From NCBI GenBank assembly GCA_027083445.1, contig JALWOP010000401.1, positions 1-40,495 of the forward strand: a stretch of DNA of 40,495 nt, given 5' to 3'. The stretch is from Planctomycetota bacterium. Its GTDB lineage: Bacteria; Planctomycetota; UBA1135; GCA-002686595. The notes under the pieces are model-generated. The model was given only the letters and a program-made list of their open reading frames with translations. It made no database searches and was not told the origin of the DNA. The translations under genes were made by a program, and so were the position numbers. Positions 36,769 through 39,710 of this stretch are shown here, in pieces; positions within the stretch are counted from its first letter, which is position 1, and each line of letters opens with the position of its first letter.

Positions 36769-39003
36769 TCACTCCGAGTTCCCCGTGTAGCCCAGGGCAT
36801 CCATCTTGGCCCGCTTGGAGGCGCTTTTCTTCTTGGGGAGCCAGGCCTTGGGCAGGTCATCGCGGGAGGGGCGCCGAGCCGCGGTCAGTTCCGCGAGGCG
36901 GCCGGGGTACTTCTCGGCAACGTCCTTGGAGAGATCACCTTGGAGATCGAAGAGCTGGGGCTTTCTGTCGCCTTCGACGACGAGCTGGAATCTGCCGTCG
37001 GTGATGCCCCACCAGCGCGATCCATTCATGGTGCTGACCAGCTCCTGGATGGCGAACGAGCGGCGGGGCGGGGCGAAGAGGGAGGCTCCGAAACCTTCGG
37101 TTGGTGCCAAACCGAAGGCGTCGAGCACGGTCGCATGGAGATCGAGGAGGCTCACGAGACGCTCATCCTTCGCCGGTTGAACTTGGCCCGGGAAGCGCGC
37201 GATGAGAGGCACGTGCACCATGCAGGGATAGGTCGTCTCCCCATGGCAGAACCAATAGTCGTGCTCGCCGAGAGCCTCGCCGTGATCGGCGGCGAACAGG
37301 ATCAGGGCCTCGTCCGCCCGGCCGTTGGATCCGAGGTAGGCGAGGAGCTCCCCGAGAGCGTCGTCCATGCTCCGTATCTCGGAGCGGTAGAGCTCGCGAT
37401 AGGTCCCCGCCCGGCACTCCCCGTCCAGGTCCTGATAGCGAGGAATCTGCCCCTTGCCGGAATGCGAGGTTCCGATGGGCAGGCAGGGTCCGGGATCGAG
37501 GGTCCCGGCATCGCGCGCGGCGAACTCCGCCGGTGGCGTGTAGGGACCGTGCGGGTCCATGTAGTGCACCCACAGGAAGAACTCCTCGATGCCGTCCCTC
37601 TCGAAGCTGCGCAGAATGCGAAGCGCAGCAGAGGTGGTATCGACGGCGTTGCGCTCGGGTATCTTGCGGTTGAGTTCCGTGTCGGGTAGCTCGTCATCGT
37701 AGAGGTCGAATCCCTGGGAGATCCCGACCAGTTCTCCCTCGACCGTCTGGCGATGCAGGACGAAGTTGGAGACCACGGCTGCCGTTGGGATTCCGCGGTA
37801 GGCGAGTTGCTCGGTGAACGTGTCGATTTCGGAGGCCAGTTGGTAGCGATTCCCCTTCAAGACCCCGACCTCGGAGGGGAGGAAGCCGGTGAAGATGCCG
37901 GCAAAGGAGGGGCCGGTCGTCGGTGCCGTCGAGAAGGCGCGCGGATAGACCGTTGCTTGGCGAGCGAGGTCATCCAGGGCTGGGGTCAGTCCCAGGGCGC
38001 CACCCACATGATCCGCGCGCAGGGTGTCGCAGGTGATCAGGATCACCCTGCGTGCTCGGCGTACACCGGTCGCCCGGGCGGGGTGTTGCAGTTCGACATC
38101 AGAGGTAGGGGGCTCCGCGTTCTCCTGTGAGCACCCCAGGAGCAACGCGAGGAGTAGGGCCAAAAAGAGCAGGCCGGCGACGGTCTGGGCTTGCTTGCGT
38201 TGCCGGCGTAGACGCCTGCCGGCAGCACGCTCCTGTTCGAGTACCTCGCGCGTCTGTTCGAGACGCCCCTGGGCGTCCGTGTGGCCCTCCTCCACGAGAA
38301 TGCCCCCGGGTAGACAGGGTAGGGTCCCGTCGGAGCAGAGCGCGGTCGTGTACATCCCATCGGGGAGGCCCTCTTCGAACGAGGCCTTCTCGAGGTCGGC
38401 TTGGTAGCGTCCGAAGGGGGTGCCCTCGGTAGGGGGGTCGGGAACGAGCAGGGATCCGAAGACCACGCGTTGGCGGTAGAGGCGCACGTTTCGAAAGGCG
38501 CCGCGCACGAACTCACCGAACTCCTCGTGGTAGAGCTCGCGCACGTGGAATTCGTTCTGGTAATCGCGATCGTCCGAGTAGACCTTCTTGTCGGGCGTGC
38601 AGACCAGAAAGATCCCGCCGGGGACGAGGACCCGGCGCACTTCGGCCAGGAATTCCTCCTGGGTGTGGATGTGCTCCAGGGTTTCGAAGCTGACGACTAC
38701 GTCCACCGTCTCCCGGCCGAGGGGAATGGCATCACAGGAGCCGGCGAGATAGGCATGGCCGTATTTCGCTCGGGCATGGGCCGCCGCCGCGGGTGCGATA
38801 TCCACGCCGATGACTCTGGCCGCTCGGGTGGCCAGGAGATGGGTGCCGTAGCCCTCTCCGCAGGCGATGTCGAGCACGCGCTTGCCCCGCACCACTTCGA
38901 GGGCGGCCGCATAGCGATGGAGGTGTTCGAGGACCAGGTCACCTCCGACCTCGGGCATCAAGCGCTCCCCAGTCCAAGCGAGCTCGGAGTTGTCCGCGGG
39001 CAT
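36769..39003 (-). CDS. Methyltransferase-TM-sulfatase-fold fusion protein
   Basis: 744 residues in one open frame. Residues 1-230 are a class I SAM methyltransferase (RVLDIACGEGYGTHLLA, about 42-58; VVVSFETLEHIHTQEEFL). A short charged coil (240-272, ending RRLRRQRKQAQ) leads into a TM helix (274-290, VAGLLFLALLLALLLG) and Cys291. Residues 300-744 are a sulfatase-fold domain: VILITCDTLRADHVG (Asp326), TGPSFAGIFTG (Thr363 at the nucleophile position), FAADHGEALGEHDYWFCHGE. The basic side before the helix places the methyltransferase in the cytoplasm and the hydrolase outside. LLLGC resembles a lipobox, so an internal start making a lipoprotein was considered, but no good start or SD is seen near it. 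It ends in ALGYTGNSE, a version of the shared GYLG tail. Confidence 0.85.
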   Translation of the reverse strand: MPADNSELAWTGERLMPEVGGDLVLEHLHRYAAALEVVRGKRVLDIACGEGYGTHLLATRAARVIGVDIAPAAAAHARAKYGHAYLAGSCDAIPLGRETVDVVVSFETLEHIHTQEEFLAEVRRVLVPGGIFLVCTPDKKVYSDDRDYQNEFHVRELYHEEFGEFVRGAFRNVRLYRQRVVFGSLLVPDPPTEGTPFGRYQADLEKASFEEGLPDGMYTTALCSDGTLPCLPGGILVEEGHTDAQGRLEQTREVLEQERAAGRRLRRQRKQAQTVAGLLFLALLLALLLGCSQENAEPPTSDVELQHPARATGVRRARRVILITCDTLRADHVGGALGLTPALDDLARQATVYPRAFSTAPTTGPSFAGIFTGFLPSEVGVLKGNRYQLASEIDTFTEQLAYRGIPTAAVVSNFVLHRQTVEGELVGISQGFDLYDDELPDTELNRKIPERNAVDTTSAALRILRSFERDGIEEFFLWVHYMDPHGPYTPPAEFAARDAGTLDPGPCLPIGTSHSGKGQIPRYQDLDGECRAGTYRELYRSEIRSMDDALGELLAYLGSNGRADEALILFAADHGEALGEHDYWFCHGETTYPCMVHVPLIARFPGQVQPAKDERLVSLLDLHATVLDAFGLAPTEGFGASLFAPPRRSFAIQELVSTMNGSRWWGITDGRFQLVVEGDRKPQLFDLQGDLSKDVAEKYPGRLAELTAARRPSRDDLPKAWLPKKKSASKRAKMDALGYTGNSE

Positions 39004-39117: not shown

Positions 39118-39525
39118 TCACCGCACGGCGGCGTCCAGGACCCCGGGTGGGGCGGTGGGCTCGCCCTCCGGCGCGGGGAGCACTCCCCCTACCTCGTACC
39201 CCAGGGGCCGCAGGCGGGCGGCGATCCGGGGGACGAGGTCCTCCTCGCGACAGAGGTCCGCGTCATAGAGAACCGAGACCGAGCCGGCGGCCACGTCCAC
39301 TCCGATTTTCCAGATGCAGGGCAGCCCATCCAGGGCGCCGGCGACCCGAATGGGTCACCAGGTCGGTCAGTGCAGACCGGAGACCGCGAGTTCCACACGA
39401 CCCAGGTTTTCAGGAGGCGGAGCTTCGCGGCTCTTCCACCACCCGAGAAAGACGAGAGCGCAGACCAAGAGACCCGCACCCAGACGGATGGCGAGCACGC
39501 TGCGATCGATTCGGCGGGTGGGCAT
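39118..39525 (-). CDS. Candidate selenoprotein: membrane-anchored HMA (MerP-like) domain with UPTWU site (two in-frame TGA)
   Basis: From ATG 39525, with TAGGAGGA six bases upstream, one frame runs to TGA 39118 if TGA at 39369-39367 and 39357-39355 are read as Sec53 and Sec57; 135 residues. A TM anchor (about 10-30, VLAIRLGAGLLVCALVFLGWW) is followed by a heavy-metal-associated domain. It reads VELAVSGLH-U-PTW-U-PIRVAGALDGLP, then VDVAAGSVSVLYDADLCREEDL and LGYEVG, which is the HMA plan: beta strand, metal loop C-P-x-x-C, helix with V-x-x-A-L-x-x-L, strand, helix, GYEV. Both Sec fall exactly on the two metal-ligand cysteines. Read with plain stops, only a 60-residue fragment without the metal loop would remain. 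Role: selenolate/metal or redox chemistry at the membrane (inference). It is upstream of, and on the same strand as, the methyltransferase-sulfatase fusion (114-bp gap). Confidence 0.85.
39325..39354 (-). promoter_or_regulatory. Candidate bacterial SECIS hairpin directly after the second TGA
   Basis: On the minus strand the 30 bases following TGA 39357-39355 begin CCCAUUCGGG and end CCUGGAUGGG. They pair as ten continuous base pairs, with two G-U pairs (U6-G25 and G8-U23), closing a 10-base loop, UCGCCGGCGC. The loop starts 11 bases after the second TGA and 23 after the first, in the range used by SelB-dependent elements, and contains several G. Folding was done by eye. Confidence 0.62.
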
Positions 39526-39710
39526 GAATCCTCCTACGGAGAGGGGTTGGATTTGGGACAGCTAGGTTACGGAGCGTTCAACTTCGTCTATCGGATTTCC
39601 CTTGTGACCCCGTCTCCCGGGCATGTCAGGCGCTCTCTTCCCATATCCGAGCCATATCTCAGAAAACTGTCTGCTTCTGACACTCGTGGAGCGAGAAGAC
39701 CTCTGGGCAG
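39526..39710. promoter_or_regulatory. Divergent intergenic region with CCATATC direct repeat
   Basis: A 185-bp region between the HMA selenoprotein gene (minus) and the MshEN-like gene (plus), less GC-rich than its surroundings, so both promoters probably lie here. CCATATC occurs at 39641-39647 and 39652-39658, an 11-base period (one helical turn), which fits a tandem binding site. No confident -10/-35 boxes were assigned. Confidence 0.4.

Follow-up and report, generated by a model that had tools for sequence, protein, structure and literature searches.

Gene, reading frame and genomic setting

The window (the whole stretch of DNA analysed, 40,495 nucleotides from a member of the Planctomycetota) contains a 135-codon frame on its minus strand (39,121–39,525). 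The frame starts at an ATG at 39,525, behind a Shine–Dalgarno-like AGGAGG located inside the 20 nucleotides 5′ of the start (39,526–39,545, minus strand), and is terminated by a TGA at 39,118–39,120. It also contains two in-frame TGA codons, at 39,367–39,369 and 39,355–39,357 (minus strand), which are taken here as selenocysteine (Sec, U) codons for residues 53 (site 1) and 57 (site 2). Start codon, AGGAGG, both TGA codons and translation are as described in an earlier note made from the sequence alone. Codon usage scores 0.26 bits per codon before the two TGA codons and 0.31 after them in the same frame; both parts are similar to chunks of known genes in the window (mean 0.30, s.d. 0.20).

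The source assembly, probably metagenomic, is a draft that is 87% complete and consists of 477 contigs. Upstream, 970 bases separate the gene from the end of its contig, and most of that side is therefore unseen. The seven nearby open reading frames (ORFs) that were scanned include no metal gene; they encode a methyltransferase–sulfatase, a glycosyltransferase, a sulfatase, MTHFR, an AMP-binding enzyme and two proteins without a match. At 36,769–39,003 (minus strand), methyltransferase and sulfatase domains are joined in one ORF.

Protein fold, ligand loop and topology

The AlphaFold model of the protein, built from six sequences, has a mean pLDDT of 80.4, with residues 125–135 below 50. Residues 8–32 (39,430–39,504, minus strand) form a helix in the model, bearing out the N-terminal transmembrane anchor that had been proposed. 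Residues 41–116 (39,178–39,405, minus strand) are predicted to form a ferredoxin-like HMA domain with the order β-α-β-β-α-β, in which residue 57 starts the first helix. Using Foldseek, the top match in the PDB is an oxidised MerP (1osd; TM score 0.84 by target, 0.48 by query). The earlier note had called this a textbook HMA fold; the modelled fold agrees with that description, but it was too generous on sequence, because the match to Pfam PF00403 (HMA) barely clears its cut-off (24.9 bits against 24.8). Among seven Sec-containing relatives, five pass the same model, G013 falls short at 22.5 bits and G197 gives no match.

Both TGA codons fall on the HMA ligand positions, as had been claimed, but the spacing differs from what was expected: the loop reads UPTWU (U-x-x-x-U, or UxxWU), whereas C-x-x-C is the typical HMA ligand spacing. 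When the family was aligned by HMM with solved HMA domains, 48 PDB chains were matched and the three displayed have a gap at the Trp; the loop therefore exceeds CxxC by one residue. Lys and Arg are more numerous before the helix than after it in 15 of the 17 family members. The window protein itself is tied (3 and 3), and a periplasmic orientation of its domain is thus suggested by the family.

Trp-loop homologues with Sec or Cys

Homologues were sought in overlapping sets of genomes: 61 relatives, 81 members of the same family, 154 genomes at class level and 392 sampled across the phylum. Together they gave many HMA matches. The class and phylum searches are not exhaustive, because at most 27 and 10 candidates per genome, respectively, were scored. 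We examined 16 homologues that share the loop Trp. Eight have a TGA at ligand 1 (G013 and G197, UHVWC; G014, UGVWC; G095, UGLWC; G101, UGMWC; G187, ULVWC; G169, UTTWC; G303, UKMWU), and eight are Cys-Cys forms (G091, G092, G139, G128, G129, G130, G296 and G322), the kind of homologue that the earlier note had proposed to look for. With the window gene included, site 1 is a TGA in 9 of 17 Trp-loop genes, more than chance would produce. At ligand 2, G303 is the sole homologue with a TGA; the other 15 have Cys. As G303 belongs to a different class from the window genome, UxxWU cannot be put down to an accident in a single genome. The 17-row alignment has three invariant columns only, residues 53, 56 (the Trp) and 57.

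A further difference lies just before site 1, where residue 52 is His in 8 of the 9 Sec rows and in none of the 8 Cys rows (Fisher P = 4 × 10−4, for a contrast spotted post hoc between rows that are not independent). His 52 may be a third ligand, a partner of the selenolate or part of the recoding context. A tree of the 17 proteins has good support on just 4 of its 14 inner branches and is thus weak; parsimony on this tree gives three undirected changes between Sec and Cys, only one of which is forced by the well-supported branches. Apart from the gene itself, no cluster of ORFs is common to more than 3 of the 17 loci.

Several other searches added little. No match was obtained in the same-genus genome G001 (72% complete) or in a plasmid search, and no new member in class-level searches of 12 genomes around G303 and one around G169. 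An earlier scan of named contigs gave no relative; a further search found relatives on five, three from Planctomycetota and two labelled 'bacterium'. All five are Cys forms, from which we infer that the search pattern could not see TGA forms.

Selenocysteine machinery

The Sec machinery expected for such a gene is present in the source genome, which encodes SelA, SelB, SelD and tRNA-Sec, with selA, selD and the tRNA-Sec gene on one contig. Its SelD itself carries the motif CAGUAAK, with a TGA at U. Given this machinery and the Cys-Cys homologues, two of the three outcomes that the earlier note had named as refuting did not occur. We also scanned 18 further genomes: eight with Sec Trp-loop genes, eight with Cys Trp-loop genes, G001 and G018. 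SelB is over its cut-off in all 18 and SelA in 16, the exceptions being G092 (76% complete) and G296 (84% complete). Bacteria that possess Sec machinery thus include hosts of the Cys forms as well.

RNA structure after the TGA codons

The 48 nucleotides after site 1 were folded and compared with 400 codon-preserving shuffles, for which, as a simplification, the codon usage of the window was applied to all genomes. The window segment has a z score of −3.0 (0 of 400 shuffles). All nine Sec rows are negative (z = −0.57 to −3.00; combined −4.98), whereas the combined value for the eight Cys rows is −0.55 (Sec versus Cys, Mann–Whitney P = 2.9 × 10−4).

The single-Sec rows have in common a hairpin of eight pairs (hairpin A), the loop of which lies 18 nucleotides after the first TGA. 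Across the nine Sec rows, 80.6% of cells pair, compared with 28–43% at slid positions. Covariation is 0.375, against 0.03–0.08 at slid positions, and is equally high in 2 of 500 shuffles; on two of the five covariation measures, the hairpin is not above the shuffles (201 and 124 of 500). Six of the seven single-Sec rows form seven or eight of the eight pairs, a count that is not rare for any of the six under the codon null (P = 0.045–0.19), and G187 forms four. In the UxxWU genes, the count is four (window) and five (G303), and in the Cys rows one to six. With four of eight pairs, hairpin A does not form in the window and was rejected as its SECIS.

The minimum-energy fold of the window segment consists instead of two other hairpins, B and C, side by side. 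Hairpin B (39,320–39,339, minus strand) has the core GCCC-UGGAU-GGGC and is a candidate SECIS; its loop lies 22 nucleotides after the second TGA and 34 after the first. Hairpin C (39,340–39,359, minus strand), GGUGACCC-AUUC-GGGUCGCC, contains the second TGA and places its loop 15 nucleotides after the first. In the window alone, neither hairpin is significant (P = 0.20 for B and 0.08 for C), whereas the z score of the whole segment is.

A published model of the bacterial SECIS, as given in a review, has a loop of 3–9 nucleotides with a G in the first two positions, a distance of 16–37 nucleotides from the UGA and an MFE of −7.5 or lower (PMC13188914). Hairpin B agrees with this model for both TGA codons (34 and 22 nucleotides; UGGAU loop; −14.3 kcal/mol), and the loop of hairpin C, 15 nucleotides from the first TGA, falls just outside it. 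The model is permissive, because at site 1 it accepts not only all nine Sec rows but also five of the eight Cys rows. Rfam gave nothing above its gathering score over the whole window; a sub-threshold match near the gene lies on the opposite strand and was taken as chance.

Double-Sec HMA genes

A broader set of 38 Sec-HMA loci was assembled, hand-chosen rather than exhaustive, in which each place counts a single time. It comprises 24 UxxxC, 7 UxxxU, 5 UxxU and 2 UxxC loci. A wider hairpin scan found a model-like hairpin 12–44 nucleotides from the first TGA in 37 of the 38 (L034 has none). A stem of 4 bp or more carrying a UGGAN loop exactly 22 nucleotides after the second TGA, the arrangement of hairpin B, is present in 9 of the 12 double-Sec genes, against 1.58 expected from codon-preserving shuffles; L074, L079 and L115 are without it. 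The same stem occurs in 2 of 26 single-Sec genes and in none of the 8 Cys genes (Fisher, 12 versus 26, P = 6 × 10−5). In the nine genes, 57 of 63 pairs form, compared with 17–38 at slid positions, and 43 sequence pairs are changed on both sides, compared with 0–13.

Several features limit the weight of these figures. The UGGAN pattern was spotted in the same data, so that its P of 7 × 10−8 is not that of a pre-stated test; the Leu-Glu/Asp codons of the protein dictate UGGA to some extent, and among genes that have UGGA the contrast is 9 of 9 versus 2 of 5 (P = 0.03); and L053, L077 and L078, within the double-Sec set, are 60–73% alike. The form corresponding to hairpin C, GACCC-nnnn-GGGUC, takes in the last two letters (GA) of the second TGA and is found intact in 6 of the 12 double-Sec genes, with 0.95 expected (P = 1 × 10−4, post hoc). 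For this hairpin, single-Sec and Cys genes provide no control, because a Cys codon breaks one pair.

The UGGAN-loop hairpin 22 nucleotides after the second TGA is likely to be a SECIS. More tentatively, and at somewhat under even odds, we propose that the Planctomycetota contain a large, mostly uncatalogued radiation of Sec-HMA proteins (Cys-Cys, Sec-Cys and Sec-Sec) with a dedicated two-hairpin element for decoding double UGAs. As part of this single proposal, the UGAs of the double-Sec genes would lie only 9 or 12 nucleotides apart, one hairpin would contain the second UGA, and the UGGAN hairpin would keep a fixed distance of 22 nucleotides from the second UGA at any distance from the first.

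Other architectures were encountered among the loci. The Sec-HMA frames at L081:4503–4868 (+) and L129:4981–5334 (−) reach a second G-M-x-U motif, so that each of these proteins may contain Sec-HMA repeats in tandem and several Sec. The UxxU HMA frames at L039:1360–1797 (+) and L053:334–789 (−) continue to LLDF-x-APG and then a TGA, which suggests a thioredoxin-like part with an additional Sec. The Trp-loop HMA proteins at L123:6205–6909 (−) and L125:6652–7332 (−) are extended at the C terminus by about 115 residues; HMA is the sole Pfam match in L123.

A putative double-Sec soft-metal binder

The best explanation of the locus, to which we give a probability of roughly two in three, is a selenoprotein gene with Sec at both UGA codons, encoding a periplasm-facing, MerP-like binder of soft metals. 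The ribosome would insert Sec at both UGA codons, guided by hairpins just 3′ of them, with hairpin B as the guiding element, probably together with hairpin C. The product, 135 residues long, would be anchored by a single N-terminal membrane helix and carry an HMA domain, most likely in the periplasm, with Sec53 and Sec57 of the U-x-x-W-U loop as its two ligands. On the outer side of the inner membrane, the protein would probably bind a soft metal ion, either Hg(II) or Cu(I), in the manner of MerP. Sec is strongly supported at site 1 and well supported at site 2, where Cys in 15 of the 16 homologues counts against the proposal. Other points against it are that hairpins B and C do not reach significance in the window alone, that the SECIS model is permissive, that hairpin A fails to exceed the shuffles on two covariation measures, that G001 gave no match, and that the seven nearby ORFs include no metal gene, although the contig ends close by.

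An alternative is that both UGA codons specify Sec, but that the residues form a diselenide or selenolate redox pair, which would reduce or oxidise a partner in the periplasm, any metal binding being incidental. Most uncharacterised selenoproteins are likely to be redox proteins according to the covered portions of a review (PMC13188914), and the top fold match is to an oxidised form of MerP. Thioredoxin-like parts in some siblings, L115 (Thioredoxin_7, over the Pfam cut-off) and L116 (TIGR01068, E = 4 × 10−11, under the cut-off), likewise suggest a redox function and count against a metal role. However, the fold is of the metal-binding type, and the window protein has no thioredoxin family match in Pfam and NCBIfam scans. 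Moreover, MerT-like N-terminal parts adjoin the Sec-HMA domain in L133:554–1213 (−) and L115:883–2052 (−), where they are over the Pfam cut-off, and in L114:1480–2661 (−), where the part is just under it; none of the three reaches the NCBIfam cut-off for MerTP or for MerT/CopZ. These MerT-like parts, the HMA/MerP fold and the location of the ligands lead us to place the metal role ahead and to consider a dedicated redox centre unlikely.

It is improbable that the first UGA alone encodes Sec, with the second arising from a Cys codon through an assembly or sequencing error or through recent mutation. Such an origin would suit the prevalence of Cys at ligand 2 and the draft, probably metagenomic assembly, but it leaves unexplained why the same UxxWU is found in another class (G303) and why the coding signal persists past the second TGA. 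It also fits poorly with the hairpins: A is degraded in both UxxWU genes (as it is in G187), and B and C are present. A decayed gene, in which the TGA codons are ordinary stops, would agree with two in-frame stops and a marginal Pfam score, but was rejected as very improbable because both stops hit precisely the two ligand positions, site 1 is recurrently a TGA among the Trp-loop genes, the Sec machinery is present and codon usage is normal beyond the stops. Genome-wide reassignment of TGA (for example, to Trp) would also produce in-frame TGA codons, but was rejected as very improbable, as TGA terminates both this frame and selD of the same genome, which has a Sec system.

If the window protein is a double-Sec metal binder, its all-selenolate two-ligand site and its naturally occurring Cys-Cys, Sec-Cys and Sec-Sec relatives, which share a scaffold, would make it possible to test directly what selenium contributes to soft-metal binding or redox. 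Double-Sec HMA genes also provide a compact test of bacterial recoding, with two UGAs 9 to 12 nucleotides apart. Gene callers that take TGA as a stop would truncate or overlook such genes.

Comparison with known systems

NCBIfam already names a family of metal-binding proteins with two Sec, NF041115 (UxxU_metal_bind), which makes the idea less unprecedented than it might seem. In the examined portions of Table 1 of a review, NF041115 appears as a metal-binding (seleno)protein with two Sec, credited to Zhang and Gladyshev 2007, and those portions contain no UxxxU HMA entry (PMC13188914). The covered parts of two other papers list a UxxU putative mercuric reductase (PMC9312934) and a row for a Sec-containing MerP (PMC2398784). 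The terms 'heavy metal' and 'mercur' each occur zero times in the main texts of the deep-Sep paper (PMC12013277) and of a paper on planctomycete selenoproteins (PMC4807772). No title or abstract describing the Trp-loop subfamily was found in the open literature, the scope of this search being papers outside subscription.

NF041115 is likewise an HMA-like metal-binding protein with two Sec. The window protein differs from it in score (24.4 bits against a cut-off of 95), in its UxxWU loop, which is one residue longer, and in its N-terminal transmembrane helix. The best NF041115 score among the 17 Trp-loop proteins is 43.7 bits, and none of the 27 relatives scanned reaches the cut-off (highest 78.1, L136). 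None of the 17 reaches the cut-off of any listed NCBIfam model; the sibling L114 passes a CopZ N-terminal model. NF045683, a MerT/CopZ fusion-like heavy metal transport selenoprotein, shares the HMA-like part and the handling of soft metals, but its MerT part is absent from the window protein, which is unlisted at E = 1; the G013 homologue scores 17.2 bits against 375.

MerP (TIGR02052; PDB 1osd) has the same HMA fold and is the best structural match to the window protein, although the latter scores 20.0 bits against the TIGR02052 cut-off of 92.55, and the solved HMA domains displayed have CxxC, unlike the UxxWU of the window protein. MerP usually has mer operon neighbours, whereas the seven nearby ORFs include no mer genes, on a contig that ends shortly upstream. 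With HMA domains in general (PF00403), the window protein shares the fold and a bare pass of the cut-off; what sets it apart is a loop one residue longer, a Trp that is invariant in all 17 rows and the probable presence of Sec at both ligand positions.
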